Below, piece by piece: positions 2,996 to 27,435 of a DNA stretch of 32,978 nucleotides; position 1 is the first letter of the stretch, and every line of letters starts with the position of its first letter. The notes below the pieces were generated by a model. The model ran no database searches and had not been told where the DNA came from. It was given only the letters and a program-made list of their open reading frames with translations. Origin of the DNA: Phycisphaerales bacterium. GTDB taxonomy: Bacteria > Planctomycetota > Phycisphaerae > WQYP01. A program made the position numbers and the translations under genes. The stretch covers positions 1 to 32,978 of the forward strand of contig DAHVEJ010000024.1 in assembly GCA_027313145.1 (NCBI GenBank), given 5' to 3'.

Positions 2996-5548
2996 ATGTC
3001 TTCAATTCACAAGTTTGTTGTTGTGCCGGCGGTGCCGGAAAAACTCGCGGCGCTGCACGAGTTGGCCTACAATCTCTGGTCGTTATGGAATTATGAAGCG
3101 GCAAGTTTATTTAATCGATTGGACCCGGATTTATGGGAAACCACCGGGCATAATCCGGTACGACTGCTGAATCTCATCGGTCAGGATAAACTGCGCGCCG
3201 CCGCGGAAGATGAAGGATTTCTGTCGCATCTCAATCGCATAACGTCGGACCTGAAATCCTATATGCAGCAAAACACCTGGTTTAAACAGCGCTATCCGGA
3301 TCGCAAGCCCGTGATCGCGTATTTTTCGGCGGAGTTCGGGCTGCATGAATCGCTGCCGATTTACTCCGGCGGCCTGGGAGTGCTTTCCGGCGACCATCTC
3401 AAAAGCGCCAGCGATCTGGGCATTCCGCTGGTCGCAGTCGGGCTGCTGTACCGTGAGGGTTATTTCCATCAACAGTTGAATGCCGATGGCTGGCAACAGG
3501 AATTGAACCCGGAAAATGATTTTTTCTCCATGAGTATTACCCAGGTGAAAAATCAGGAAGGACAACAAGCGGTTATCACCGTGGATTACCCGGACTCGCA
3601 AGTTCGCGCCGCGGTCTGGCGGGTGCAGGTGGGCCGGGTAACGCTGTACCTGATGGATTGTAATCTGGAAATTAACAGCCCGCATAATCGGGACATTACC
3701 GCACGGCTTTACGGCGGCGATCACGAAATGCGCATCCGGCAGGAAATTATGCTGGGTATTGGCGGTTTGCGGGCCTTGGCGGCGGCGGGCATTACCCCAA
3801 CGGTATGCCACATGAATGAAGGGCATTCGGCCTTTCTGGCGCTGGAACGCTGCCGCGTGCTGATGGAACAGGAAAAGCTAACCTTTGCCGAAGCGCGGGA
3901 AATGGTTGCCGCCAGCAACGTATTTACCACGCATACGCCGGTTCCAGCCGGCAATGACGCCTTTCATCGTGATTTAATTGAAAAATATTTCACCAACTAT
4001 TGCCATAAACTCGGTATCAGCATTGATGAACTCATGGCCATGGGACGGGTGAATCCGCAGGACAGCAACGAATTTTTCGGCGTAACCGTGCTGGCGTTAC
4101 GCATGGCGTGGCATGCCAACGGTGTCAGTGAGTTGCATGGGCAGGTATCGCGACGCATGTGGCAGCGGATTTGGCCCGAAATTCCCGCTCCGGAAATTCC
4201 GATTCGCCACATTACCAATGGCGTGCATACGCAGTCCTGGTTAAGTGAAGGCTTCGCGCGGCTCTATCAGGAATTTCTGGGCGCTAACTGGACGGAGCGC
4301 CCGGCCGATCACAGCATTTGGGGACGCACTGATAAAATCCCGGATGTTGAAATATGGCGCGTTCATGAACGCCGCAAGGAACGCCTGATACATTTCGCGC
4401 GCCAGCGGCTGGCCATGCAGCTTGCGCGGCGCGGTCAATCCGCGCTGGATATTCAACGCGTGGACGAAGTGCTGGATTCAAAATCATTAATCATCGGCTT
4501 TGCGCGGCGCTTTGCCACCTACAAACGCGCGACGCTGCTTTTGCGCAATCCGGATCGCTTAATTAAACTTCTTAAAGATTCCAATCAGCCGGTGCAGTTT
4601 GTTTTTGCGGGCAAGGCCCATCCGCGCGATGACGGCGGAAAGCGCTTTATTCAGGAAATCATTCATTTCTGTCGGCGGGAAGATGTTCGCACGCGTATGG
4701 TGTTTCTGGAAGATTATGATATTGATGTCGCGCGGTATCTTACGCAGGGTGTGGATGTATGGCTTAATACGCCCCGTCGGCCCATGGAGGCTTCCGGCAC
4801 CAGTGGCATGAAAGCCGCCATTAACGGAGCGTTGAATTTAAGTATTCTGGATGGTTGGTGGTGTGAGGCGTCGGCCGAGGATAATGGCTTTGCCATTGGT
4901 GCCGGCGAAGATTACAACAACGATGAATATCAGGATGAAGTCGAAAGCCGGAAACTTTTTGATCTTCTGGAACGCGTGGTTGTGCCGCTGTACTACGACC
5001 GCAGCCTTGACGGCCTGCCGCGAAACTGGATCAAACGGATGAAAAATTCCATTCGCACGATCTGCCCGGTGTACAATACCAATCGCATGGTGCAGAATTA
5101 TTCGGAAATGTTCTACCTGCCCGCGCATGATCTGTATATGAAACTCATGGAGGGCCACGGTGCCGGCGCTGCGGCATTGGCCCAATGGAAAAAACGCATC
5201 GCCCAGCTATGGGATCAGGTGAAGGTAACGCACGTGGAATCTCCGTGTGCCGGCACGGTAAAAGCCGGTGAAAGCGTCAAAGTATTTGCCACCGTTGAAT
5301 TAGGCAGCATCCCCGTAGATAACGTGCGGGTGGAACTTTATTTTGGTCCACTGGATGCGTTCGGCAATATTCAGGATGCCCGTGTGCATGAAATGGCGCT
5401 AAGCACAAATATTGGATCTGGAGTGTTTCAATTTGTGGGTGCCATCAGCGCCGGAGCCTGCGGTCAGCAGGGCTACGCCGTTCGGGTATTGCCCAATCAT
5501 CCCAATATCGCTCTGCGGTTTGAACCGGGATTGGTACGCTGGGGATAA
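2996..5548 (+). CDS. glgP: Alpha-glucan (glycogen/maltodextrin) phosphorylase, DUF3417-containing type
   Basis: This 850-residue enzyme releases glucose-1-phosphate from alpha-1,4-glucans using pyridoxal phosphate. The N-terminal ~110 residues (LHELAYNLWSLWNYEAASLF, then LWETTGHNPVRLL) are the DUF3417 region found in the Thermus/mycobacterial-type alpha-glucan phosphorylases. The catalytic body has AYFSAEFGLHESLPIYSGGL, VCHMNEGHSAF, ITNGVH, FARRFATYKRA and the PLP site EASGTSGMK, whose lysine is residue 606. The C-terminal ~130 residues form a beta-rich extension (HVESPCAGTVKAGESVKV) usual for this subfamily. The start at 2996 has GAAGGAG 8 nt upstream. The gene stands alone, with its own promoter and structured leader. 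The length is normal for the family and no defect is visible. Confidence 0.97.
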   Translation: MSSIHKFVVVPAVPEKLAALHELAYNLWSLWNYEAASLFNRLDPDLWETTGHNPVRLLNLIGQDKLRAAAEDEGFLSHLNRITSDLKSYMQQNTWFKQRYPDRKPVIAYFSAEFGLHESLPIYSGGLGVLSGDHLKSASDLGIPLVAVGLLYREGYFHQQLNADGWQQELNPENDFFSMSITQVKNQEGQQAVITVDYPDSQVRAAVWRVQVGRVTLYLMDCNLEINSPHNRDITARLYGGDHEMRIRQEIMLGIGGLRALAAAGITPTVCHMNEGHSAFLALERCRVLMEQEKLTFAEAREMVAASNVFTTHTPVPAGNDAFHRDLIEKYFTNYCHKLGISIDELMAMGRVNPQDSNEFFGVTVLALRMAWHANGVSELHGQVSRRMWQRIWPEIPAPEIPIRHITNGVHTQSWLSEGFARLYQEFLGANWTERPADHSIWGRTDKIPDVEIWRVHERRKERLIHFARQRLAMQLARRGQSALDIQRVDEVLDSKSLIIGFARRFATYKRATLLLRNPDRLIKLLKDSNQPVQFVFAGKAHPRDDGGKRFIQEIIHFCRREDVRTRMVFLEDYDIDVARYLTQGVDVWLNTPRRPMEASGTSGMKAAINGALNLSILDGWWCEASAEDNGFAIGAGEDYNNDEYQDEVESRKLFDLLERVVVPLYYDRSLDGLPRNWIKRMKNSIRTICPVYNTNRMVQNYSEMFYLPAHDLYMKLMEGHGAGAAALAQWKKRIAQLWDQVKVTHVESPCAGTVKAGESVKVFATVELGSIPVDNVRVELYFGPLDAFGNIQDARVHEMALSTNIGSGVFQFVGAISAGACGQQGYAVRVLPNHPNIALRFEPGLVRWG

Positions 5549-5564
5549 GCGGTACCTCGGCGAT

Positions 5565-5609
5565 TGGAATCTGGAACCTGGAACCAAGAAACTGGAATTT
5601 TCTGGAATC
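5565..5609 (+). repeat. Degenerate 7-bp tandem repeat after glgP
   Basis: TGGAATC, TGGAACC, TGGAACC, AAGAAAC and TGGAATT follow each other in strict 7-bp phase from 5565, and a final TGGAATC follows after 3 bp. It sits in the short gap between the convergent glgP and flippase-like genes. No coding role is apparent. Confidence 0.6.
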
Positions 5610-5679
5610 GCTTCGCTGCTAATGTGCAGGCGTGACAGAGAGCCAGTGCCGTGTCAGGGTACCCTGCGGTTTATCTCAT

Positions 5680-6975
5680 TTACGCTTCGGGTGCCAATTC
5701 ATCGAGGCTTTCCACCTGCTGGCGATGGTAGGTTCCCCGCACCACCCAATAGGCTCCCAGCAGATTCCAGCAGATCGGCAGGAAACGAATGGCTTGGGCC
5801 AACGCAAAGGCCTGACTGGCGGTATCGACGCCGCGCGCAACAAAAAAGTGCAGCAAAATGGCATCCATCACGCCGATGCCCTGTGGCGGAACAATCGGCA
5901 AACTCGCCGCCAGGGCCGCCACCGGAATGCACGCCATAAAGTAACCGAATGATGCGTGCATCCCAAAGGCCCGACCCGCTAAGAACCCCGCCAGCGGCAG
6001 TACCGCCTGCGACACTACACTGGCTGCCAGCGTCACCGCGACCACACCCGGATGGTCACGATACACCCGCAGCGTGCGATCCGCGTGTTTGATAAATTCC
6101 GGCAATGGCAGGCGTTCAATCAACGCATCAAGATGTAGAAGTTTCCGCAAGCGGGCCGAAAAATAAACAATTCCGCCCGCCAGCGTCAGGCCCAGCAGGC
6201 CGGTAATCAGCCACAGCACATGCACCAAAACCGGGTCAGAGACGCTCTTGCCGGAAACGGAAAAATGATTCGCCGCAAGCTGCGCCGCCGCCGCTACGCC
6301 GGCCACAATCATCAAACCAATTAAACCGATGACCCGATCCAGAATCACCGTGACCGCACTTTTCGTTTTTTGCCCGGTGATGCGGCCGGTGTAAATAATT
6401 TTGACAATATCCCCGCTGGTGGTCCCGGGAAGAAAGGTGGAATAAAACTGCCCCACAAATGTCAGGGTCAAACATTTCAGGTAGGGCAAATTCATGCCCT
6501 GCACCAGCATGAGTTGCCGCCAGCGCCACGCGGTAATGACAAAGGGCAATCCCAGCAGCAACAATGCCGCCAGCAAAGGCAGCGGCTTAGCCCGCCCCAG
6601 CAGATGCGGCAGCCCCAGGGCCACCGATACTTTTCCGTGCACCGCCACCAGATAACTGCCCGGCACCGCCAGAAGTTTAGGGAATTTGATCGGTGCCTTC
6701 GTGGCCCGGCCCGTTACCATCTGCCCGTGCGGCAGACGGACAGTCACCTTCTGGCCTTGAAATTGCAGCGTATACAGGGTGCCGCGCCGCGCTAAAAGCG
6801 GCAGCGGCGTGTTGTGCAGAAACGTCACATTGCGGATGACCTGTCCTTTTCTGATCACCGCCTGATCATGCCATGCGATATGGGAAATCACATACCAAAG
6901 TCCCACAACCGCAATCAGAATTTTGATCACGGTAATGGCCACTTTGCGCGCGGTGTGCGGTTTTGTCTGGGTCAT
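5680..6975 (-). CDS. Flippase-like membrane protein (lysylphosphatidylglycerol synthase TM / UPF0104 family)
   Basis: This is a 431-residue polytopic inner-membrane protein. The first span is at about residues 12-32. A largely soluble insert of about 90 residues follows, probably periplasmic, then a run of hydrophobic segments from about residue 135 to the end. Hallmarks of the family are WRWRQLMLVQGM, VGQFYSTFLPGTTSGDIVKI and the AVTVILDRVIGLIGLM stretch. The MprF flippase domain and many uncharacterised lipid-translocation proteins share this fold; no soluble aminoacyl-transferase domain is present, so it is not a full MprF. It starts 30 bp after pyrE on the same strand and is probably co-transcribed with it. 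Its own ribosome-binding site is weak, which also suggests dependence on pyrE. The substrate is unknown. Confidence 0.85.
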   Translation of the reverse strand: MTQTKPHTARKVAITVIKILIAVVGLWYVISHIAWHDQAVIRKGQVIRNVTFLHNTPLPLLARRGTLYTLQFQGQKVTVRLPHGQMVTGRATKAPIKFPKLLAVPGSYLVAVHGKVSVALGLPHLLGRAKPLPLLAALLLLGLPFVITAWRWRQLMLVQGMNLPYLKCLTLTFVGQFYSTFLPGTTSGDIVKIIYTGRITGQKTKSAVTVILDRVIGLIGLMIVAGVAAAAQLAANHFSVSGKSVSDPVLVHVLWLITGLLGLTLAGGIVYFSARLRKLLHLDALIERLPLPEFIKHADRTLRVYRDHPGVVAVTLAASVVSQAVLPLAGFLAGRAFGMHASFGYFMACIPVAALAASLPIVPPQGIGVMDAILLHFFVARGVDTASQAFALAQAIRFLPICWNLLGAYWVVRGTYHRQQVESLDELAPEA

Positions 6976-7005
6976 GCAAAGCCAATCTTCACAGGGAATT
7001 CAAAA

Positions 7006-7527
7006 TCAGATGCCCAGGTCCTGCCGGGTTAAAATGGATTCAAACATAAAGCCCGCAGCTTCAATGTTTTCCCGCGCGCCTTCCTGACGGTCGATCACTG
7101 CGATTATTTTTTCCACCTGGGCACCGGCGGCAAGTATCACCTTTGCCGCCTCCAGCACCTGCCCGCCGGTGGTGGCAATATCCTCCACCAGCAGCACCGT
7201 ATCGCCGGCCAGCAATGCTCCTTCAATAAGTTTGCTTGTGCCGTAATCCTTTTTAGAATTGCGCACAATAAAAAACGGCAGACCCGCCGCCAATGATGCC
7301 GCCGCCGCCAACGCCACCCCGCCCAGTTCCGCCCCCGCAATGCGCGTGGTCAGAGGTGAACGCGCCGCCGCCATTCTTGCCCCCAGCGCCGCCAGGATGT
7401 CCGGCTGCGTTTCAAAGAGGTATTTATCCATGTAATATTTGGATTTCCGCCCCGACCGCAACGTAAAATCCCCCTCCAGATACGCCACTTCCTTAATCCG
7501 GGCCGCCAAGTGTAATTTATCCAGCAT
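7006..7527 (-). CDS. pyrE: Orotate phosphoribosyltransferase
   Basis: PyrE joins orotate and PRPP to give OMP in de novo pyrimidine synthesis. The 173-residue protein shows the usual N-terminal LEGDFTLRSGRKSKYYMDK and the PRPP-binding loop VLLVEDIATTGGQVLEAAKVIL in the C-terminal half. It is slightly shorter than many bacterial PyrE proteins but has no missing core motif. The ATG at 7527 follows TAGGAG by about 8 nt, and a perfect TATAAT lies about 30 bp upstream. It is the first gene of a two-gene unit with the flippase-like gene. The long repeat copy B begins about 75 bp upstream of its start codon. Confidence 0.96.
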   Translation of the reverse strand: MLDKLHLAARIKEVAYLEGDFTLRSGRKSKYYMDKYLFETQPDILAALGARMAAARSPLTTRIAGAELGGVALAAAASLAAGLPFFIVRNSKKDYGTSKLIEGALLAGDTVLLVEDIATTGGQVLEAAKVILAAGAQVEKIIAVIDRQEGARENIEAAGFMFESILTRQDLGI

Positions 7528-8929: not shown

Positions 8930-9013
8930 ATGAAAACCACGGCACCGAGTGCGAAGTTTGCCGGATTTTTCTTGACTTGCGTCAATGTGACGAGTTACTC
9001 TTGGCAGCCATGA
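8930..9013 (+). CDS. Tiny ORF (27 residues) overlapping the next start by ATGA
   Basis: The reading frame MKTTAPSAKFAGFFLTCVN continues to a TGA at 9011-9013, which overlaps the ATG at 9010. The upstream GCAGGGG gives only a modest ribosome-binding site. It has one weak hydrophobic patch and no recognisable family. It is listed because its stop overlaps the next ORF, whose own stop overlaps the SWIM gene start. It could be a leader peptide or chance. Confidence 0.25.
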   Translation: MKTTAPSAKFAGFFLTCVNVTSYSWQP

Positions 9014-9165
9014 ACCGGTTATTATACGGAATCACGCGGCTGGAATTGATTGTGGTGATGGTAATTGCGCTGCTGATTGCGTGCCCCATCCCGAACAACG
9101 AGGGCTTGCCGATGGACCTCCAAGAGTCTGCCATAATCGCAATTAGGTGGGGAGTTTTTGCATGA
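9010..9165 (+). CDS. Short prepilin-like membrane peptide (51 residues)
   Basis: The N-terminus, GITRLELIVVMVIALLIA after MNRLLY, resembles a type IV prepilin / pseudopilin signal: Gly before the cleavage point, Glu at +5 and a hydrophobic helix. Only about 25 unrelated residues follow, so it cannot be a complete pilin. Its TGA (9163-9165) overlaps the ATG of the SWIM gene (9162), an arrangement typical of translational coupling. It may be a genuine small membrane peptide or the 5' remnant of a pseudopilin gene; a pseudopilin 3' fragment lies at 13787-14134. Confidence 0.4.
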   Translation: MNRLLYGITRLELIVVMVIALLIACPIPNNEGLPMDLQESAIIAIRWGVFA

Positions 9166-10553
9166 GCGCTGCCGAGAGCTTGGCTTATACTTACCGCTAC
9201 GCATTCGCCTCCAACCTGGTTTCCCAGGGCGACGGGCTGGGACTGCGCCTTGCGACCTGTGGCGGTCCGGAAGCGAATCCGCATTTCTTCCGCGGTAGAT
9301 TGGCGCATCCCAAGGAAATTGCGGACCAATTGCTCACGCTTGGCCATGTGGTCTCGTCGCGGTTTTATCTGCCCAATGCCATGCGGTTAATTGATCCGGT
9401 AGTGACCAGCAACGATAATATGTTGCGATTCGAAGGCTTTAGTTCCTGTTGCAGCGTCTATGCGCGGGCCGATATAAAAACCGAGGCTTTCGAGATCGAA
9501 TTCCATGGACGGGGCACGACCAATGTGGATTTCAACTCCGGGATGCGCACCGCGCTGGCACGAATCCGTCCACGGGACGAGGTACACCTATCAGTTGGTG
9601 CCGATGAGTTGACACTTGTGCGGGGGCAGCACACGGTTGTCGAGAGAAAAGTCCTGCTCCCGGTGCGTTGGCTCAGAGGGTTCACCGAGGTGCAAGCCTA
9701 CCAACTGAAACTGCGGATGCGGTATAAAGTGTCTGCCCCCGACGCGCTGCGGTTCATTCAGGGCGTGCCGCGCAGCGGAGGGCCTAAGCAGCCATCCTGG
9801 GTGGTGCCAATCGGGAACGGTATCCGACTCAGCCAGCGTGAGTCCAAAGATGGTGTGCGTGTTACCGGCACCGACCGGTTGCGGCTGTTGGAGGGATTGG
9901 TCGGCAGCGCCACGGAGCTTCATATCTGGGACGCCCCCGGGGCCGGAACCAGCGCCTGGGAACTGGTATTTCCCAGCGGCCGATTCACATTGATGCTTAG
10001 CCCGGAGCTTTCACGGGGATTCAGCGGCGAGGGGCAGATGTTGTGGCAATTGGCTGGCCCGAGATGGCAGCGCGCTCTACTGCAAGTGCGGGCCGAACTC
10101 CTCTGGCAATCCCGCATTGATGCGCCGGGAATCGCACAACGCTGCAACTTGTCGCTGCCCGAGGTACAAGGTGCCCTGGCAACGTTTGCGGCCCGCGGCT
10201 TGGTCGGATATGACGCGGCAGAAGAAACCTATTTTCATCGCGAATTACCATTCGACTTCACTGCCGTGGAATCATTACAACCGCGTCTGAAGAGCGCCCG
10301 CGTGCTGATAACCGGTGGCGGGTTGCGGGTCCTACAGCGGCGAGGCACCGGTGATGCGATACAAGCCGTGGTAATGGTTCCCGGCACAGGTGTTGAGCAC
10401 CGAGTGTATTTGTCTCCCGAAGGAGATAAATGCACCTGCCCGTGGCACGCGAAGAATCGGGGCGAAAGAGGACCTTGTAAGCATGTCTTGGCCGCGCGGA
10501 TATTAGTGGAAAAGAATGGCGCGACCACGGTGATGGCTGAGGAATGCTCGTGA
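9162..10553 (+). CDS. SWIM zinc-finger protein
   Basis: This 463-residue protein ends in a SWIM zinc finger. CTC, twelve residues, then CKH (the CxCx12CxH pattern) sits at about residues 421-438 within CTCPWHAKNRGERGPCKHVL. SWIM fingers bind DNA or protein partners. The preceding ~400 residues contain a possible winged-helix-like stretch (ELLWQSRIDAPGIAQRCNLSLPEVQGALATFAARGLVG). A GTG at 9147 extends the frame, but ATG 9162 is preferred because GGTGGGGAG lies about 7 nt upstream. The gene is followed after 16 bp by a DUF6493-like gene. SWIM proteins of this type are known beside DUF6493, MoxR-type AAA+ and VWA genes in other bacteria; the ATPase and VWA partners are missing here. The cellular role is unknown. 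Confidence 0.8.
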   Translation: MSAAESLAYTYRYAFASNLVSQGDGLGLRLATCGGPEANPHFFRGRLAHPKEIADQLLTLGHVVSSRFYLPNAMRLIDPVVTSNDNMLRFEGFSSCCSVYARADIKTEAFEIEFHGRGTTNVDFNSGMRTALARIRPRDEVHLSVGADELTLVRGQHTVVERKVLLPVRWLRGFTEVQAYQLKLRMRYKVSAPDALRFIQGVPRSGGPKQPSWVVPIGNGIRLSQRESKDGVRVTGTDRLRLLEGLVGSATELHIWDAPGAGTSAWELVFPSGRFTLMLSPELSRGFSGEGQMLWQLAGPRWQRALLQVRAELLWQSRIDAPGIAQRCNLSLPEVQGALATFAARGLVGYDAAEETYFHRELPFDFTAVESLQPRLKSARVLITGGGLRVLQRRGTGDAIQAVVMVPGTGVEHRVYLSPEGDKCTCPWHAKNRGERGPCKHVLAARILVEKNGATTVMAEECS

Positions 10554-10569
10554 TTAAGTTGGTGCGCCC

Positions 10570-13500
10570 ATGACGACCAATGAACTTGAGCGGCTTGTCC
10601 GTCAAAACGACATACAGGAACTCGTCGCCGCTGTGGCGGAGCTGCAGGAGCCTGAGCGGCGGAAATTGGCCAAAACAGCCGCGGGGTTATTTAAGGCGGC
10701 ACGGGATGCAACATTGCACATCTGGCAGACCGTGGCACGCACACGCGGCATTTCGTCAGACGACCCGGAAATCCGCGCAGCCAATGCCGCGGAAAGCTCG
10801 GCGGCATTGGCGGTGCTCGCCCTTTGTGGGTGGTCTGAGGTACGCCGTATCGGCCCGCAAGTCTGGGGATACGATCTTTCGCTCTTGACTCTGGTTGAGC
10901 AGGTTCTCCGGGCGCGCCGACCCGATTGGTTGGAGAAGTGGATCAATGCCGAGTTGTCCCCCAACCACGCGAGCCATTGGGGAATCGTCCGCCAATTGGT
11001 TCGTGCCGGTGCCTGTGCCGCTCCCAACAGCGATGCGTACATCATCCAAATGATCCGCCAACTCGCCGGTCGGTTCCACCACGGCACGATCAAGATTACG
11101 CTGGCGGATGTCCTGCGTGGGGATCCGGATCTACTGAAGGATGAGATTTGGCGGATATTCGAGATTGATTATGGCCGCCAGTGCGTCCTATCAGTTGGGG
11201 ATGGAGAAATTGGGCCAGCATGTTCCTGGGGCGCGGCGTTGGTCGAGTTGTCCAATTCCGGGGAGATTGACCGCCAGCGGCTCCTCTCGGCAAGCCTACT
11301 GGCCCTCAATCGCCGATTCCAAGTAAATAATGCCTCATGGTTTTGTCGCCTGCATGAAAAAATGGAACCAACTAAAGAGGAACGCCTTGCCCGCCAGGGA
11401 CTTTATATGGATCTGCTGTCCAATAATTTCCCCGTTGTAGTCGGCTTTACGTTGGGCGCGATCAAGATCATCAACCATTACAGCCAACTGGATATGGCTC
11501 GGTTTACTGAGGAGGTAGGTTCGGTTTTTGGATTGAGGTCGAAGACGCATCCGCTCACCGCTGTGCGAATTCTCAGACTGGCGGCGAAACAAACGCCCGA
11601 GCAAAACGGATTAATAGCGCGGGTAGCTGCCCGTGGCCTGGGCCATCGGTCGCCCGAAGTGCAAGAGGCGTGTGTGGACTTGATGGAGGCGATCGTGCGG
11701 GAACCGGACCCGGCCATCGCCGAGGCATTGGTTCTACATGCAAGCGAGGTGGCCGCTTCGCAGCGCCAGCGCGTGGCAGCCATCCTGAATCGGGTACGGC
11801 CTTATTCTCCCTCGATCCCCGCCCAGGCAACCGCAAGAGAGCAAAATCCGCCAGAATGCGACGCTGGCAGTCCTGCAGAGAATCGCACTATGGTGGATAT
11901 CATGCTCGAAGGTCGGCGGGTTGCCGAAGCTTGGTGCCTGGCTGCAGGAATCGACGCGTGCCTGCAAGCCATGGAAGCCGGTACGGAACCGCCTGCCGTC
12001 GCAATTGATCCACTGTCGGTTCCGAGGCTGGCCTCGAATTCTGCGATTCCCCCTATCGAGACCTTCGATGCACTTTTGGAAGGCCTGTCGGCGGCAGTGG
12101 AAAAACTCGATGAGTCCGAGGAATTTGAGAGTCTTTTAGATGCTTTGAGTCGGCAGGCCGACTACCGCCCGTACGATTTTGTTCCTCGCACCGCACCCCT
12201 GCTCAAGCGCGTCAACGATCTGCAGGGTCAGAACCGGTGGATCAGTGAGGCTACTGATCCCCAGATCAGCTTGCGCGAGTTGGTCAGGGCATGGATTCAG
12301 AAGCAGCCGTTGGTGGGATTGCCACTGAGTCACCGACGAGTTTCTCCTTTGCACTTCATTTCGGCGCGGTTGGTCGCGCTTGCGGGCCGGTTGCACCGGG
12401 GCGTTGCGGCACCGCTTCTGGCCGCTCCGACACACCGAGCCGGGTGGCTCGATCCCCGTGTATTGGTCCGGCGTCTCCAAGATTGGCCGCAGGGCGAGCC
12501 GCTTGATCGTTGCGATCTGATCCAGGCCCTCCTGCGCATGGCACCCGACCACCGTGCGGTCGCACTTGGCCAGGCGGAGGCGCTTCCGGGAGGAGTCGGA
12601 TCCGTTTTGCGCTACGCACTGGGCGGTAGCGAGCCTGGTGGGAACAAGGGGGGACATGAAAGCCACTGTGAAGCCAAGCTTCGCTGGGCCATCGGCGGAT
12701 CGCCGCCACAGTCGCACGACATCGCGCTTTGGATTGCTGCCGCGAGGGCGCGACGGCCTGACGGTGCATTTCTGGATTTTTCGGCCGCGCCGGAGACACT
12801 GGGACCAGACGCCGCATTGCCTGCCAGCTACTCTTGGGAGGTCGGGACAGCGAATTCTTGGCGGAAAAATGAATTGCGTATCCATCTCACGGCTGCTCCG
12901 GCTGTCGCAGCCGTGAACACTTCAGTCGACCGCCCTACTGTCTTGCTCAACGAGTTTCGCGACGAAATATTCCCGTTCGATAGTCTCTTGCGAATCCGTT
13001 GCCGATTAGCAATATGGCCGGTTGACCCAGAGGCCATGTTCGCCTGTGGGGCGCAGGCCATCGCGAGCCGTCTGGACAGCCCCGCGTCAAGCCTCTCCCC
13101 TGCGTCCCCGTATTTCGAACCGCTTTTTGACCCAGATACGCCCTTCTCGGAAATGGCCCAGTTGTGCGTGGCCTTGGGGCTGTTGTCCAAGGATGCCGGG
13201 GCCCGTGGCATGGCGATTGATGTAATGCTTGAGCTGATCAAGGACGGTCGCTGTATCGGCAAGGAGTTGGGCGCTTTGTATGCTAGACTAAGTGCTACAA
13301 AATACTTGGTTCGCCTCAATCGCCTGGCGGATGCACTGGCCGAAGTGGCGAGGGCCTCAATTTTACATAGGCACGCGGCCACCAGCCTGGTAGAGGCTCT
13401 ACTGGCATCGCTGCGTCCGCCGGCACCGGATGATCTGCACTATCTGTTAACTCCTTTGCGGGAGTGGCTCGCTGCAAGTGGTCGAGCCTTGACACCCGCA

Positions 13501-13692
13501 TGCAACGCTCTCCTGCATTCGATCAATGGCGGAGGTAAAACGGCAAAACTGGCGGGCTGTCTCAAATCACAGTCCGGATCCTCTCGACCGCAAACCCAAG
13601 TTTATGCGGACGCGCTGCGCGCACGAATCGCGCGGGCCAAACGCTGGCAACAACATTCTTCGCAAATGGCTCCCGTAACTGCACCATTGTGA
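10570..13692 (+). CDS. Large DUF6493-like helical-repeat protein
   Basis: This 1040-residue soluble protein has no signal peptide or membrane span. The N-terminal third (LERLVRQNDIQELVAAVAELQEPERRKLAK...) and the segments up to residue 400 are alpha-helical and HEAT-like, including VQEACVDLMEAIVREPDPAIAEALV. The C-terminus (GKELGALYARLSATKYLVRL, RLADALAEVARASILHRHAA, then a GGGKTAKLAGCL-like end) fits the C-terminal region of DUF6493 family proteins. These are commonly encoded next to SWIM zinc-finger proteins. It starts 16 bp after the SWIM stop without a clear ribosome-binding site, so translational coupling is likely. A scaffold role in a SWIM-containing complex is inference. The family call rests on overall pattern and neighbourhood, not on a catalytic motif. 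Confidence 0.65.
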   Translation: MTTNELERLVRQNDIQELVAAVAELQEPERRKLAKTAAGLFKAARDATLHIWQTVARTRGISSDDPEIRAANAAESSAALAVLALCGWSEVRRIGPQVWGYDLSLLTLVEQVLRARRPDWLEKWINAELSPNHASHWGIVRQLVRAGACAAPNSDAYIIQMIRQLAGRFHHGTIKITLADVLRGDPDLLKDEIWRIFEIDYGRQCVLSVGDGEIGPACSWGAALVELSNSGEIDRQRLLSASLLALNRRFQVNNASWFCRLHEKMEPTKEERLARQGLYMDLLSNNFPVVVGFTLGAIKIINHYSQLDMARFTEEVGSVFGLRSKTHPLTAVRILRLAAKQTPEQNGLIARVAARGLGHRSPEVQEACVDLMEAIVREPDPAIAEALVLHASEVAASQRQRVAAILNRVRPYSPSIPAQATAREQNPPECDAGSPAENRTMVDIMLEGRRVAEAWCLAAGIDACLQAMEAGTEPPAVAIDPLSVPRLASNSAIPPIETFDALLEGLSAAVEKLDESEEFESLLDALSRQADYRPYDFVPRTAPLLKRVNDLQGQNRWISEATDPQISLRELVRAWIQKQPLVGLPLSHRRVSPLHFISARLVALAGRLHRGVAAPLLAAPTHRAGWLDPRVLVRRLQDWPQGEPLDRCDLIQALLRMAPDHRAVALGQAEALPGGVGSVLRYALGGSEPGGNKGGHESHCEAKLRWAIGGSPPQSHDIALWIAAARARRPDGAFLDFSAAPETLGPDAALPASYSWEVGTANSWRKNELRIHLTAAPAVAAVNTSVDRPTVLLNEFRDEIFPFDSLLRIRCRLAIWPVDPEAMFACGAQAIASRLDSPASSLSPASPYFEPLFDPDTPFSEMAQLCVALGLLSKDAGARGMAIDVMLELIKDGRCIGKELGALYARLSATKYLVRLNRLADALAEVARASILHRHAATSLVEALLASLRPPAPDDLHYLLTPLREWLAASGRALTPACNALLHSINGGGKTAKLAGCLKSQSGSSRPQTQVYADALRARIARAKRWQQHSSQMAPVTAPL

Positions 13693-13786
13693 CGTGACCG
13701 CGTGCGGAAATAAAAGCGGAGAGGCAGAAAATACGGGTAGGAACCGCCATCGAATCGGTATTGTTTGCAGCGGTCCAGTTGAAAGC

Positions 13787-14134
13787 CGGGATAATCGCAT
13801 TACTACGACATTGCTTGGAGATAACACTTTTGGAAATTATATTTATAATTCCATGAATCACCGGGGCAGGGGTCAGAATGTCGGATTCGGGGACGATCAT
13901 GTTTCATGGAATACCAATCCGTATTGCGGCGCCCACCATGACAATATTTTCACATATTATCGTCATGAGTACACCAGCCATGGCGATTCCGCGGCTGCTC
14001 CGCAGGCGGGCTTAAGCGAATTGGGCAATGCCGCCGCGGTGCCGACAATCCTCGGCTCCAAGCCCGATTATGACATTTGCATGGTTCCGGTGCGCAACGG
14101 CAGTCAGTACGGCAAAAAAATGCGAAGGTGGTGA
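13787..14134 (+). pseudogene. 3' fragment of an H-X9/10-DG pseudopilin gene
   Basis: The translated segment TTTLLGDNTFGNYIYNS, then NHRGRGQNVGFGDDHVSW, PYCG-HHDNIFTY, APQAGL and ICMVPVRN runs parallel to the last ~115 residues of the intact pseudopilin encoded at 20719-21759. The pilin signal, the hydrophobic helix and the central domain are absent. In the signature, the DG pair has become DD. The frame is open back to 13694, but the ~30 codons before the match have no counterpart. It lies immediately after the DUF6493-like gene. It is best read as a gene remnant exposed by insertion or deletion rather than a working protein. Confidence 0.75.
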
Positions 14135-14586: not shown

Positions 14587-14627
14587 AGTGGAACCGTGAA
14601 AGCGGGTAAAATGGACGTGGATCAGTG

Positions 14628-16919
14628 ATGATGCAGAAGACCAATAATTTCGTTGGCGACAAGCCACTTGTTCCGGATGGGTTTGAAGCAATCGTCTCGG
14701 AGCATATCGGCTGGGCTTATCACATGGCCCGCCGACAGCTTGCCGATGCCGGCCTTGCCGAAGATGCGGTGCAGGCCGTTCTTTTGGCGTTGTGGCAAAG
14801 GCGAAAACGCCTTGAGGCGCAAAACCGATCCATCGGCGGCTGGCTGGTGCGCGCAACATATTTTATTTGCAGCCAAATGCGCAAATCCGAAGCCCGGCGA
14901 CGAAGCCGCGAAGGGAAGGCAATTGTCACGCGAATTCAAGAAGCAGATGTTCCTGCCGAGGCCGCAGGCTCCAACATCTTACAACTCGCGGCTATGGACG
15001 CGGCAATGCAAAAGCTTTCCAAGGGGGATCGAGCGTTGCTGGTGGCGCGATTTTTTCAGAATCGTACCGCCCGGGAAGTGGCACAGCAGTTCAATATTTC
15101 CGAAGCAGCGGCGGCTAAGCGCACGGCGCGTGCGGTGGAACAAATGCGGAACATAATGACGCGACAGCGTTTGACATTAGATAGCACCGCGATGATGGCC
15201 CTGCTCGCTGGCGGGGCCAGCACGGCACCGGATGGATTAGCATCGCAAGTTCTCCACGCCATTGCGGGCCAGGGGCCGTTAAGCGCCTGCGCCGCCCGTG
15301 CCGCACAAAGCATATCGTTTCGCGCAGGGCGTGCTCCGGCGTTTCTTGGCGCGTCCGCAGCGCTGGTGGGCGTGGCTGCAGTAACTATTCCCCTGGTGGT
15401 AAAAACGCCGCAAAGGGCTGCGGTGCCAATCCCCGCTGCTGCGAGCGCAACCCATCGCTCAGTACATATTCCCAGCGCCCACGCCGCGCCGCACATCACC
15501 GGGCCATTAACCAAAAATGGCTACGTCAATTACGTGGCGAAGTTTAACAAGCGATTCGGCCAAGGCGTCACCGCGTTGAATAATGCTGCGGTGCCGCTGG
15601 TAATTCTATTTCGGCCGGACTCGTTTCGAGACTCCACTACCAAAGTAGTGGCTGGAAAATTCATCAACGTGCCGGACAAAACCTTCGCGCGCAAATTACG
15701 CAGATCACTGGGAATTTCCAAGCGTGATATAACGGGACCGCGCTTTGTCAGCTACCAGAAGTTCCGCAGACACGCCGATCCGGCGGCAGTGGCACAGGGC
15801 CTTGGCTTGGCCGGTAATTTACCGCCTGCGCCGCAGTACACCCCGGCAGGGCTTTACAGGCACCCGTGGTCGGCCAGGACCAACCCATGGACGGCTGCAT
15901 TCTTAAACACCAATGCCGGGGCCTTGGATATCGCACGGTCAGCATTCTCCCGTCCACACTTTTTTCTGCCACTGGTTGAACCCGCCGGTGGCGACCACAG
16001 TATGGCCACCGCAGTAGGTTCGATACTCCCGGCCCTTGCTCCCGCCAAGGCTATTTGCAACGGACTTGTGGCACAAGCCATGCTGGCATTGCACCAGGGC
16101 CGCCTGCGGAGGTGTCAGCAAGATTTGCTGGCCGTCCATCGGCTGGCCCGGTTACTAACCCGTGAACACTTCCTGATCACCAACCTTGTAGCTGTTTCCA
16201 TTGAGATGATGGGGTGTCAGGCGGATATTGCTATGGCCAATTCCCACAAGCTGTCATCGACAGCATTGCGCAACTACCTGAATCAGCTGTTGAAGCTTCC
16301 CCGGCCCACGTCGGTGGCGGCTGTGATTAATACCGGTGAGCGATGGACAACGCTTGACGTCTTGCAGCACGCTTCGCCTAACCTCGCCGCACTCTTCGGA
16401 TTTGCCGCGCCGCGCAAGCCGGCCAAACCCTTGAACGGAGCACAGCGTGCGGCAGCATTGGCGTCCATGAACAGGCTCTTTGACCAAGTGGTTAAAATTT
16501 TTGCGATCAAGAACTACCGGCAGCGAGCCTTGGCGTCGCACCATGCACTGGCTCTTTGGCAACATGCAAAAAAGCCGGTAGACATAACATTCCTCTTCAT
16601 TGTAAAGACGCAGGCCAGAACCATTGCCATGTCAGCCCGGTGCGCCGCCTTTCGGCGCTTAGATCGCCTGTCCCTTGCCCTGGCCGCGTATTTGGAAGCT
16701 CACCAAGTATTTCCCCCTCGCCTTTCCCAACTTGTCCCCAAATTTCTGCCCGCCATTCCACAGGATCCCTACACCAATAAGCCGTTTGCCTACGCCACCG
16801 GACCACAAGGCTGCACGCTCTTTAGTCCCGGAGGATATTCGCCGCCGATAAACACCGGCGTAACACTTCCCCCCGCGCGCCCTATTACGGTACATCTGTC
16901 CTCGTCGCCGGGAATTTGA
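14628..16919 (+). CDS. ECF sigma factor fused to membrane span and extracytoplasmic domain (fusion 1, subfamily I)
   Basis: This protein has 763 residues. Sigma region 2 covers about residues 20-90 (HIGWAYHMARRQLADAGLAEDAVQAVLLAL, IGGWLVRATYF), and region 4 about 125-178 (DRALLVARFFQNRTAREVAQQFNISEAAAAKRTARAV). A single membrane span lies near 238-259. About 500 residues then face outward, starting with ITGPLTKNGYVNYV and NNAAVPLV and ending with FPPRLSQLVPKFLPAIPQDPYTNKPFAY. No separate anti-sigma gene is present, so the C-terminal half may hold or sense for the sigma domain. ATG 14628 is chosen; GTG 14625 is in frame. A five-codon ORF at 14611 ends in a TGATG overlap. The last few codons and the stop lie inside repeat copy C. 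Its outer domain resembles that of fusion 2. Confidence 0.85.
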   Translation: MMQKTNNFVGDKPLVPDGFEAIVSEHIGWAYHMARRQLADAGLAEDAVQAVLLALWQRRKRLEAQNRSIGGWLVRATYFICSQMRKSEARRRSREGKAIVTRIQEADVPAEAAGSNILQLAAMDAAMQKLSKGDRALLVARFFQNRTAREVAQQFNISEAAAAKRTARAVEQMRNIMTRQRLTLDSTAMMALLAGGASTAPDGLASQVLHAIAGQGPLSACAARAAQSISFRAGRAPAFLGASAALVGVAAVTIPLVVKTPQRAAVPIPAAASATHRSVHIPSAHAAPHITGPLTKNGYVNYVAKFNKRFGQGVTALNNAAVPLVILFRPDSFRDSTTKVVAGKFINVPDKTFARKLRRSLGISKRDITGPRFVSYQKFRRHADPAAVAQGLGLAGNLPPAPQYTPAGLYRHPWSARTNPWTAAFLNTNAGALDIARSAFSRPHFFLPLVEPAGGDHSMATAVGSILPALAPAKAICNGLVAQAMLALHQGRLRRCQQDLLAVHRLARLLTREHFLITNLVAVSIEMMGCQADIAMANSHKLSSTALRNYLNQLLKLPRPTSVAAVINTGERWTTLDVLQHASPNLAALFGFAAPRKPAKPLNGAQRAAALASMNRLFDQVVKIFAIKNYRQRALASHHALALWQHAKKPVDITFLFIVKTQARTIAMSARCAAFRRLDRLSLALAAYLEAHQVFPPRLSQLVPKFLPAIPQDPYTNKPFAYATGPQGCTLFSPGGYSPPINTGVTLPPARPITVHLSSSPGI

Positions 16920-17224: not shown

Positions 17225-19624
17225 TCACGGAAATGGCCCCTTCTGCCATTTCCGTGGTGGTGGCGGCGGCATGATGATGCGTGACGGGCCAAAATTCGGG
17301 GGTACCCACCCCGAATGCAGGTACGCTTCGGATAGGGCCAGTGCGTACCCGTCGCTGGTCCTGATATAGACGAGGGCCATTCCAGTGAACGGGTCCATGG
17401 GTGGGTGCTTGAAGAACGCTGGTGACAAGGCCGCAAGCGTCGCGGGATAATGGCCGTGTGCGTTGCGGTACATCTCAAGGGCATACGCGATTTTGACCAG
17501 CGTAAGATACCGCATTACGCCATAGGTGCCGGGCACCTCGCCAGAAACTACGTAATTGGTGGCCAGCAGCACCACGTTGTGATATCGGATATTTAATGGC
17601 AATCTCTTCGCCAAGAGATGCTCCAGCGATGCCGGAATATCGCCCGCCGCCCCGGGATTCCACCCTCCAAGCACGTCGATGTAGTGGCTGGCACGGTGCC
17701 AAACATCTTCAGTTGCCCGCAGCCGCAGGCCCGCATTTGAATACACCGGCGCACGAGCCAGCGCCCGCAGCCTGGCGAATGTTCTATTAAGATTTGCGAA
17801 CTGCCAGTTCCAATCAATTCCCGGCGGCGGATGTTCGATGATATCCGTCGGTAATGTTGGTTGGGATAGCGTTCGGGCCAGCGGTTGAAGCGGCGGAATC
17901 TGCGGATGTCGATAACACGAAAGCAGCACCCCAAGAGCCTGCAGGCGGGACGTATGGATATAGCGTTGCCTTAACGGCGGTGGCAACCTGAGGGCGTGGA
18001 TAACCTTCCACACCCGTGCCAGGAGCCTTGGATGTCCTCGAAGCTGTCCCAGCAACGTGCGGTCAACATACAACGATATACGCAACAGCACGTCGCCGGC
18101 GTAACCGCTGATTCCGTCCGGCGCTTGGTATGCCAATTCCGCAAGCCGGGTCACGGCCATCGCGTCGCTCCAGCATTTGTCCGGATAACCGCGCCCCAAC
18201 TCCAGCGTGGCGTGGCAGGCTAGGCACAGGCCGGCGGTGGTGAGGACGTACCTCGTTGGCAAACACCAAGCCATCGGCCCCTTAAGGCGTCTTGTATAGG
18301 GGGCGCTTGGCAAGTAGAACCGCGGGAGAAGGGAAGCTTTCCGCAGAAGTTCCGTTGCCGCCTTGTTCTGTTGCATTGCCGTGGCTAAGAGAAAGCACTG
18401 CGAACTGCGCCAGGGAGAATCAAGCGCATATCCCACCTCAAACTGTTTCATCGCAAAGTACGCCGGGCCGCCCTCGAACACGGTTTTCGTTCTTGGGAGC
18501 TTATATCCCTGCGGCGGATGTTTCTTGAAATACTGGCCGATTTTGTCGATCCGCGGAATTCTATTTCTTGGCGGCGTTACGCCCAGCAACTTGAGCTGGT
18601 AAGCACCCATCTCCCGGTAGTGAATTTCCGGTCCGCCTCCCCACTCATGAAACCCCTGCATCGCGATCTCAATCGCCGGCACAGCCGCATTATTTTCCGG
18701 TGTCACGCCCTTCATTAGATATTCTTTTAACGCCAGCTTGTAATCCGGCAGGCCATTCTTGCCCAACGGGCTGGTGATATAGGTTGTCGCGCGGCTGATG
18801 ATTAATTTTTGCGGGGCTTTTGGGCGGTTGTGCCCGGCCAGTGCCACCGCGATTCCGGCGGCCACCAGTGCGGTTGCCAGAACGGCACCCGTGGCGGCGA
18901 GTGCGGTTTTTCCGCTGGCCAGACCTTTGACCGACATGTGCGCCAACATTTTGGTCTGGCCAGCACTTGTAACTGTGGCCGTTGTGCCGTGTGCGGCGTG
19001 GGCCAATATGACTGCAGTGAGTTTTTCCGGCGCGGCCTGCACGAGTTTGTCTGCCAATATTGCCGTCAGTGCTTCTGACGTTAGCGGCATCTGCCTGCGG
19101 GTCATACGTGATCGCAATTTCTCTACCGCCCGTTGCACACGCTTTTTTGCCGCTTCGTCACTGATGCCCAGAACATCTCCCACTTCCCGCAGGCTGCGGC
19201 GTTCGTAATATCGCAACAGGAGTGCTGTGCGATCGGCTTGGCTTAAGCGGGCGAGCTGTTCGTCCAAAAGCGGTATTAATTCTTCATCGCGCATGGGGGC
19301 CTCCACTGCAACCGCATCGGGCCGCATTCGAGCTGCGGCCCGTTCGTGCCGTCGCCGCGTATTGTCATTCCGCAACGCCCGATTGCAGCAATGCCGGGCC
19401 GTCTTAAAAAGCCACCCGGAGATATTGGCCTCCTGCGGAATGCGCCCTGATTTTTTAAGCAGGGCCATAAATACGCACTGTGTAACATCTTCCGCCAAGG
19501 CGGGATCGCGCACAGACCGCAGGCACAGGCAATAGACCCAATCCAAATGCCGCCGGGTTAATTGCGGCATTTGTGCTTGAGCCGTGGCGTGGCCCACTTC
19601 CGGAATTGTCTGGCCGTCATTCAT
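17225..19624 (-). CDS. ECF sigma factor fused to membrane span and extracytoplasmic domain (fusion 2, subfamily II)
   Basis: This protein has 799 residues. Region 2 is at about residues 20-92 (LTRRHLDWVYCLCLRSVRD, LAEDVTQCVFMALL, ISGWLFKTARHCCNRAL) and region 4 at about 115-175 (DRTALLLRYYERRSLREVGDVLGISDEAAKKRVQRAVEKL). One span lies near 243-263. The outer part starts YITSPLGKNGLPDYKLALKEY and NNAAVPAIE and closes with HYPATLAALSPAFFKHPPMDPFTGMALVY, paralleling fusion 1 although the sigma halves belong to different subfamilies. ATG 19624 has AAAGGAG 9 nt upstream. It is convergent with fusion gene 1. No anti-sigma gene is adjacent. The signal sensed is unknown. Confidence 0.85.
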   Translation of the reverse strand: MNDGQTIPEVGHATAQAQMPQLTRRHLDWVYCLCLRSVRDPALAEDVTQCVFMALLKKSGRIPQEANISGWLFKTARHCCNRALRNDNTRRRHERAAARMRPDAVAVEAPMRDEELIPLLDEQLARLSQADRTALLLRYYERRSLREVGDVLGISDEAAKKRVQRAVEKLRSRMTRRQMPLTSEALTAILADKLVQAAPEKLTAVILAHAAHGTTATVTSAGQTKMLAHMSVKGLASGKTALAATGAVLATALVAAGIAVALAGHNRPKAPQKLIISRATTYITSPLGKNGLPDYKLALKEYLMKGVTPENNAAVPAIEIAMQGFHEWGGGPEIHYREMGAYQLKLLGVTPPRNRIPRIDKIGQYFKKHPPQGYKLPRTKTVFEGGPAYFAMKQFEVGYALDSPWRSSQCFLLATAMQQNKAATELLRKASLLPRFYLPSAPYTRRLKGPMAWCLPTRYVLTTAGLCLACHATLELGRGYPDKCWSDAMAVTRLAELAYQAPDGISGYAGDVLLRISLYVDRTLLGQLRGHPRLLARVWKVIHALRLPPPLRQRYIHTSRLQALGVLLSCYRHPQIPPLQPLARTLSQPTLPTDIIEHPPPGIDWNWQFANLNRTFARLRALARAPVYSNAGLRLRATEDVWHRASHYIDVLGGWNPGAAGDIPASLEHLLAKRLPLNIRYHNVVLLATNYVVSGEVPGTYGVMRYLTLVKIAYALEMYRNAHGHYPATLAALSPAFFKHPPMDPFTGMALVYIRTSDGYALALSEAYLHSGWVPPNFGPSRIIMPPPPPRKWQKGPFP

Positions 19625-20718: not shown

Positions 20719-21759
20719 TCACCAGCAGCCCGTGGCCACATCACGTATCGGTGCCATGCAGGTGTCGTAGGGAACCGTGTTGTACAAACTTGGAATAAAC
20801 AACACGGGACTTGCGTCGCCGCAGGTCAGACCGGCCTGCGGCGCATCAATCGAGGCCCCGAAACCCGAATACGCGGTGGTGTCATACGTGAAAATATTGT
20901 CATGGTTCATGCCGCAATAAGGTGTGGTCTCCCATACCACATGGCCATCGGCGAAGCCGACATTCTGCCCGTCGCCGTTATGGTTGCCGGAATTGTAGAC
21001 ATAATTTCCATACGTGTTGCCGGGCAGCAATGTGGTGTTGCGGTAGGTTCGCCCCAGTGTCGGCGCGCCCAGATCGTCCGGTGCCATATCGCTGATGATG
21101 GGCACTTGAGATCCGGCCCGGCTATTCCACCATGCACCGGCCTGCATGGGGATAACATTGTTCGGATCTGGCGGTGCGGCCAGCCATGGATAGGCGATGG
21201 AATAACTTTCACCCCGGCCCAGATTGCTCAGGGGCTGATGATCGGTGAGGTTGCCAAAATTTCCGAAAGCGTATTGGCCCGTTCCCGCGGTGCTGCCATA
21301 AAGCAGCGACGGGCCGTCGGCGAATGGATCGGAGGGGCAAATAAACCCCGCCGGCGTTTCATATTGCATCAACACCAGCAGCCACAGGCAACCGATGACT
21401 GAACCGGTGCTGGGCTGGTACACAACCGCGCCATCGTTGAGGTTAAACCAGTCATTGACAACCTGCTGGACGGACTGCCCGATCGCATAATGTCCCGGCG
21501 GTACGGAAGTATTGATAAACAAACCACCAAATTCACCGGGCGTGGCGGGAAACTCGTCGTTGCTGCTGGCGGCGTAGGCCAGCATGGATTGAGCGATGCC
21601 GTGGATGTTGGCCGAGCAGGCCACGCGATTCGCCTGTTCCCGGGCCGCCGCCAGAGCCGGCAACAGCAGGCCGATCAGAATCGCAATAATTCCAATGACT
21701 ACCAGTAACTCTATGAGTGTCATTCCCCGCCCGGCGTTTTGTGTATTGGACATGTCCAT
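20719..21759 (-). CDS. H-X9/10-DG type II pseudopilin
   Basis: This 346-residue prepilin-like protein is of the planctomycete DUF1559/H-X9-DG group. The class III signal is RGMTLIELLVVIG, with cleavage expected between Gly12 and Met13, Glu at +5, and the hydrophobic helix following directly. The C-terminal signature reads NHNGDGQNVGFADGHVVW, one residue longer than the canonical H-X9-DG. The start at ATG 21759 is chosen because GGAGG lies 9 nt upstream; the open frame reaches back to 21852 without a better site. Such proteins are exported and processed by a prepilin peptidase; pilus or secretion genes are not in this window. A broken paralogue lies at 13787-14134. A sigma-fusion type promoter motif is found 269 nt upstream. 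Confidence 0.88.
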   Translation of the reverse strand: MDMSNTQNAGRGMTLIELLVVIGIIAILIGLLLPALAAAREQANRVACSANIHGIAQSMLAYAASSNDEFPATPGEFGGLFINTSVPPGHYAIGQSVQQVVNDWFNLNDGAVVYQPSTGSVIGCLWLLVLMQYETPAGFICPSDPFADGPSLLYGSTAGTGQYAFGNFGNLTDHQPLSNLGRGESYSIAYPWLAAPPDPNNVIPMQAGAWWNSRAGSQVPIISDMAPDDLGAPTLGRTYRNTTLLPGNTYGNYVYNSGNHNGDGQNVGFADGHVVWETTPYCGMNHDNIFTYDTTAYSGFGASIDAPQAGLTCGDASPVLFIPSLYNTVPYDTCMAPIRDVATGCW

Positions 21760-21912
21760 GTCGAAAAACCTCCGTGCCATGGGGCGACTTCGCATAGCAG
21801 CTTCAGTTGTGAATACGCACGCCATTATATCTGCCATTTCTTTACCATGCACCGAGTCGCAGCGTGTCGTAATGCCCGCAGGAGCGGCAGTGGCGTCGCC
21901 CGCGGTTGCGAG

Positions 21913-22382: not shown

Positions 22383-22424
22383 ATTGAGGAATCCTCGAGG
22401 ATGTTACATGGAGGCAGACCAATC

Positions 22425-27414: not shown

Positions 27415-27435
27415 CAAAGCAACTCCGTTCTTATA

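Follow-up and report, generated by a model that had tools for sequence, protein, structure and literature searches.

A SWIM zinc-finger gene followed by a gene of the DUF6493 type makes up a two-gene operon, and this two-gene form is the normal and complete form of a module that occurs sporadically across phyla. It is not a stripped-down MoxR-VWA system. The sequences give good support to common ancestry, over the full length of the protein, between this SWIM protein and the one that type XIII retrons carry as an accessory. That homology was missed in the earlier reading of this DNA. The pair was studied in a window of 32,978 nucleotides, by which we mean the whole stretch of DNA that was analysed.

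The original prediction placed a SWIM gene at position 9162 and a 1040-residue gene 16 bp beyond it, and it was right to call them an operon; the reading frames and the gap are as claimed (Table 1). A GTG-start form of the SWIM frame would cover 9147-10553, but the ATG is the better start because it aligns with the starts of homologues. Most relatives of the pair have genes that overlap by 4 or 8 bp instead of a gap, so the two genes are probably translationally coupled. Against a congener that also has the pair (G007), dN is 0.0087 and dS 0.0292 for the SWIM gene, and 0.0121 and 0.0309 for the DUF6493 gene (NG86). This comparison suggests purifying selection on both proteins, and since there are fewer non-synonymous than synonymous changes both genes are probably being kept. 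The GC content of the cassette is slightly higher than that of the window (59% vs 56%), which is not decisive for a foreign base composition.

Table 1. Features of the window and SWIM-DUF6493 pairs found elsewhere
Feature	Position	Strand	Length	Remarks
Direct-repeat copy: promoter region and first codons of a pseudopilin-like gene	8962-9062	+		96% identity to the second copy in G007
Tiny membrane ORF (MNRLLYGITRLELIVVMVIALLIA...), 5' fragment of the pseudopilin-like gene	9012-9165	+		N-terminus same as in intact genes of G007 and G005
SWIM zinc-finger gene	9162-10553	+	463 aa	Pfam SWIM
Intergenic gap, SWIM stop to DUF6493 start	10554-10569	+	16 bp	
DUF6493-DUF7824-DUF7825 gene	10570-13692	+	1040 aa	Three Pfam domains above cut-off
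Gene debris, 3' third of the same pseudopilin-like gene	13785-14134	+		Translation matches the C-terminus of intact genes
SWIM-DUF6493 pairs of Asticcacaulis DW145, Diaphorobacter HDW4B, Streptomyces HUAS 31, Streptomyces NBC_01727 and Nonomuraea				Same order and strand
SWIM-DUF6493 pairs of 13 further Planctomycetota genomes				Same order and strand

The large protein had been assigned to the DUF6493 type from its letters, and profile searches bear this out. PF20103 (DUF6493) matches with an E-value of 5.7e-32 and 111.5 bits against a curated cut-off of 25, and PF25148 (DUF7824, E 1.2e-21) and PF25149 (DUF7825, E 1.8e-14) are also above their cut-offs. The claim that it is a helical-repeat protein fares less evenly. 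A single-sequence structure model is nearly all helix, which agrees with the first half of the claim, but at a pLDDT of 43 it is too poor to use, and a comparison of the protein's profile with itself gives only weak off-diagonal matches for the repeats. We regard the helical-repeat character as no more than plausible. A sequence search of the PDB gave no match, no second DUF6493 gene was found in the window genome, and no published work on DUF6493 was found in the literature searched.

The SWIM protein scores 22 bits against the Pfam SWIM cut-off of 19.6. Its zinc finger lies at the C-terminus (C424-x-C426...C439-x-H441). The N-terminal region carries the motifs DP..T, E.FS, GTTN.D and E.K..LP..W in a fold that was not recognised. 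A winged helix at about residues 300-355 is probable from the sequence, with weak matches only in a PDB sequence search (E >= 0.2). The single-sequence model of this protein is again too poor to use (pLDDT 38).

We gathered DUF6493 loci from Planctomycetota genomes and from plasmids of other phyla; neighbourhoods beyond the Planctomycetota come from plasmid records only. The association does recur in the phylum. In 14 of 14 Planctomycetota genomes with DUF6493 the gene immediately before it, in the same orientation, encodes the SWIM protein, the adjacency in one of them (G320) being taken from hit coordinates. The SWIM gene holds the same place in five of seven plasmid loci, from alpha- and betaproteobacteria and actinomycetes. 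In Hymenobacter and S. cadmiisoli no SWIM gene adjoins DUF6493; the S. cadmiisoli plasmid encodes one elsewhere. Two DUF6493 genes are present in Diaphorobacter and in one planctomycete (G455). In a plasmid of Streptomyces NBC_01340 a SWIM homologue (5007-7479) is split in two by about 1.1 kb of intervening sequence that may be an insertion. Presence is patchy, with DUF6493 in 11 of 392 Planctomycetota genomes surveyed and in two of eight genomes of the window genus. The pair is carried by plasmids, and one locus lies beside an integrase. Pairwise distances among the SWIM proteins and among the DUF6493 proteins correlate at 0.63, a value reached in 2 of 5000 permutations. Together these sequence comparisons show that the two genes travel together with a shared history.

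What surrounds the pair differs from locus to locus. No neighbour family recurs, since no Pfam family is present in more than two of the 78 neighbouring proteins. Recognised defence genes are not enriched beside the pair, where mainly generic kinases are found. No copy of the pair turned up in 50,697 phage records or viral contigs, which speaks neither for nor against defence. The conserved adjacency, the lack of a recurring neighbour and the lack of a MoxR or YehP match in any flank are the reasons we consider the two-gene form complete.

Two accounts of the pair as something other than a defence module can be weighed on these data. The first makes it part of chromosomal maintenance or the stress response: the SWIM protein and a helical-repeat scaffold would bind DNA and assist repair or recombination. 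SWIM domains are linked to DNA transactions, and the purifying selection and the lack of a defence-island neighbourhood would both fit. However, a housekeeping module should not be so patchy within the genus and the phylum, nor should it be carried on plasmids or include a homologue of a retron accessory protein, and we find this account rather unlikely. The second is a toxin-antitoxin-like pair for plasmid or island stability, in which DUF6493 would be toxic and the SWIM protein would bind DNA and neutralise it, or the reverse. Two overlapping genes with no other partner, plasmid carriage and a first gene that looks like a DNA-binding protein from its weak winged-helix matches all speak for it, but the proteins are far larger than those of usual toxin-antitoxin pairs. 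SWIM is also hard to hold as an obligatory adjacent antitoxin because DUF6493 occurs without it alongside in Hymenobacter and S. cadmiisoli. We consider such a pair quite improbable.

The original prediction also pointed to tiny membrane ORFs and an M50-type protease upstream and to gene debris downstream. All are real, and Pfam confirms the M50 ORF, but they are probably not components of the system. The tiny membrane ORF, a 51-codon leader whose stop overlaps the SWIM start (ATGA), and the debris are the two ends of one broken pseudopilin-like gene. The debris has 93% DNA identity to G007 and 73% to G005, a congener that lacks the pair and has the gene intact (about 340 aa). It also resembles a gene of the window at 20719-21852 with Pfam N_methyl and DUF1559 matches. 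In G007 an intact 338-aa copy lies downstream of the pair and the repeat lies upstream; a Pfam search of this intact protein gave no match. A direct repeat of about 100 bp brackets the pair in G007 (contig C197, 27431-27531), and the window no longer has the downstream copy, nor the 5' part of the gene that G007 keeps. The missing part could in principle be an effect of the assembly, which is fragmented. The repeat sequences are consistent with insertion of the pair by recombination at the pseudopilin-like gene. Wider synteny with G005 is lacking, so there is no clean empty site. The M50 gene does not recur with the pair and neither does the short ORF, so we reject both as functional partners; the tiny membrane ORF probably lies outside the system. 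Further downstream, four large proteins of 670-862 aa, each joining an N-terminal ECF sigma factor to a long extension, are encoded within 13 kb, at 14625-16919 (+), 17225-19624 (-), 22401-24413 (+) and 24829-27417 (-).

The idea that the pair is a stripped-down version of a system with MoxR and VWA genes deserves a closer look, since it rested on the claim that these genes are the usual partners of SWIM and DUF6493. It is true that they are absent here: the flanks contain neither, and the MoxR genes of the window genome sit on other contigs. But they are not the usual partners. Searches with YehL and YehP of E. coli and with the MoxR proteins of the window genome matched nothing in any flank examined, and the positive controls were detected. 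The clusters that do have MoxR and VWA genes are of the yehLMPQ type (DUF4132/YehI, MoxR/YehL, DUF5682/YehM, VWA/YehP and SWIM/YehQ). Their likeness to our pair is a SWIM zinc finger and a large partner protein, and this is the whole of the case for a reduced yeh system. E. coli and Iodobacter have DUF4132, MoxR, DUF5682 and VWA genes with a YehQ-type SWIM gene; Sinorhizobium has DUF4132, DUF5682 and VWA with YehQ-type SWIM and no MoxR gene in the stretch read. The window pair has none of MoxR, VWA, DUF5682 or DUF4132, and the yeh clusters have DUF4132 and DUF5682 where ours has DUF6493. A profile of the window SWIM family finds no match in the YehQ loci at an E-value of 10, and hhalign aligns the window SWIM protein with YehQ weakly, in the zinc-finger region only (2.9% probability). 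YehQ is thus homologous to our protein at most in the zinc finger. Because MoxR-VWA clusters use a YehQ-type SWIM protein with DUF4132 and DUF5682, the pair is not a reduced form of them. The reading is already contradicted, we find it barely credible and we reject it. The earlier expectation seems to have been drawn from a different SWIM family.

The window protein does have a full-length homologue in the type XIII retrons. The PADLOC model SWIM_XIII matches it with an E-value of 9.1e-54 over residues 77-455 of the GTG-start form, and matches 20 of 20 members of the SWIM-DUF6493 family tested. The link from this model to retrons rests on the PADLOC model names and the loci examined here. One of these, on a Methylobacterium bullatum plasmid, is a complete type XIII locus by PADLOC, with WGR/HEAT-ARM_XIII, SWIM_XIII and RT_XIII, and its SWIM protein is 26% identical to ours over about 380 residues by BLASTP (E 4e-23). 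About 40 positions along the full length are conserved in both groups, including the four N-terminal motifs and the zinc ligands. An hhalign value of 5e-82 was set aside as evidence because the alignment contained its target. The two groups are nonetheless distinct. The window protein scores 161 bits, weaker than the 399-793 of the main type XIII group, and scores across 384 sampled Planctomycetota genomes are bimodal. A tree of the SWIM proteins splits the SWIM-DUF6493 group from the type XIII group at 100/100; it is unrooted, so it does not tell which form came first. Type XIII SWIM proteins score strongly in about 20 of the 384 genomes (e.g. L117, L120 and L126), some with two or three copies.

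The rest of the module is different. Among 16 Planctomycetota loci that score strongly with SWIM_XIII, 11 have a reverse transcriptase (RT) directly 3' of SWIM, and several of the others sit on short contigs. A search for RT gave no match in any SWIM-DUF6493 flank. Four RT-domain matches exist in the window genome (L041-L044, on contigs C148, C61, C117 and C279), none on the window contig; the three genes inspected resemble group II intron maturases by eye, not retron RTs. Rfam, searched with no model dedicated to the type XIII ncRNA, gave no match in the window, and the 16-bp gap leaves no room for an msr-msd between the two genes. DUF6493 could have been a homologue of the retron HEAT-ARM/WGR proteins. 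We reject this: a PADLOC search of 19 DUF6493 proteins for these families gave one weak match, to another family, and hhalign gave probabilities below 2%. Only half of the module is therefore homologous to the retron; the two systems share SWIM but neither the large partner nor the RT. They are further alike in having some large protein next to SWIM, genes that adjoin or overlap and a patchy distribution. The gene order is helical protein, SWIM and RT_XIII in the retrons, as opposed to SWIM and then DUF6493 here.

One might read this as a degraded type XIII retron that has lost its RT and msr-msd, given the SWIM homology and no RT nearby. We consider this very unlikely. The SWIM-DUF6493 proteins form one group apart from all type XIII SWIM proteins, the order differs, the helical partner has no detectable homology, and both genes are intact and conserved across phyla. 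These facts argue against a recent loss of the RT; an ancient one is possible.

Type XIII retrons are predicted anti-phage systems. The SWIM protein, with its probable winged helix and C-x-C...C-x-H finger, may bind nucleic acid as a sensor or anchor, and the large solenoid-like DUF6493 protein would be its partner, either a scaffold or a harmful effector. A SWIM protein of this kind is paired in type XIII retrons with another helical protein, under an RT and its ncRNA. In the RT-less form the two proteins may hold each other in check or react to foreign nucleic acid without an intermediary, and they would most likely serve to defend the cell against phage or other mobile DNA. In retrons, effector proteins are combined with an RT and an ncRNA and kept inactive until a phage infects; some retrons have effectors that also work as defence systems in their own right, and in one the effector's place is taken by a pair that can also defend alone (PMC12548924). 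It is by analogy with these retrons that we propose a stand-alone conflict module of SWIM and solenoid proteins related to retron XIII. We favour this tentatively, as a little less than probable. A conflict function, which the original prediction had mentioned, is conceivable from the kinship of SWIM, but the neighbouring genes lend it no help. A bolder proposal is that the pair is a stand-alone anti-phage system not described before and that its family supplied the type XIII SWIM protein, the retrons adding an RT-ncRNA switch to an existing module of SWIM and solenoid effector; this is possible but somewhat doubtful.

It is important to realize that these comparisons remove the false lead of a reduced MoxR-VWA system. 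The SWIM partner of DUF6493 has so far been annotated as a zinc-finger protein only. The link to retron XIII gives a specific hypothesis for the pair in Planctomycetota, Proteobacteria and Actinomycetota, and a comparison of the RT-less and RT-bearing forms could reveal what the RT-ncRNA part contributes to a type XIII retron.
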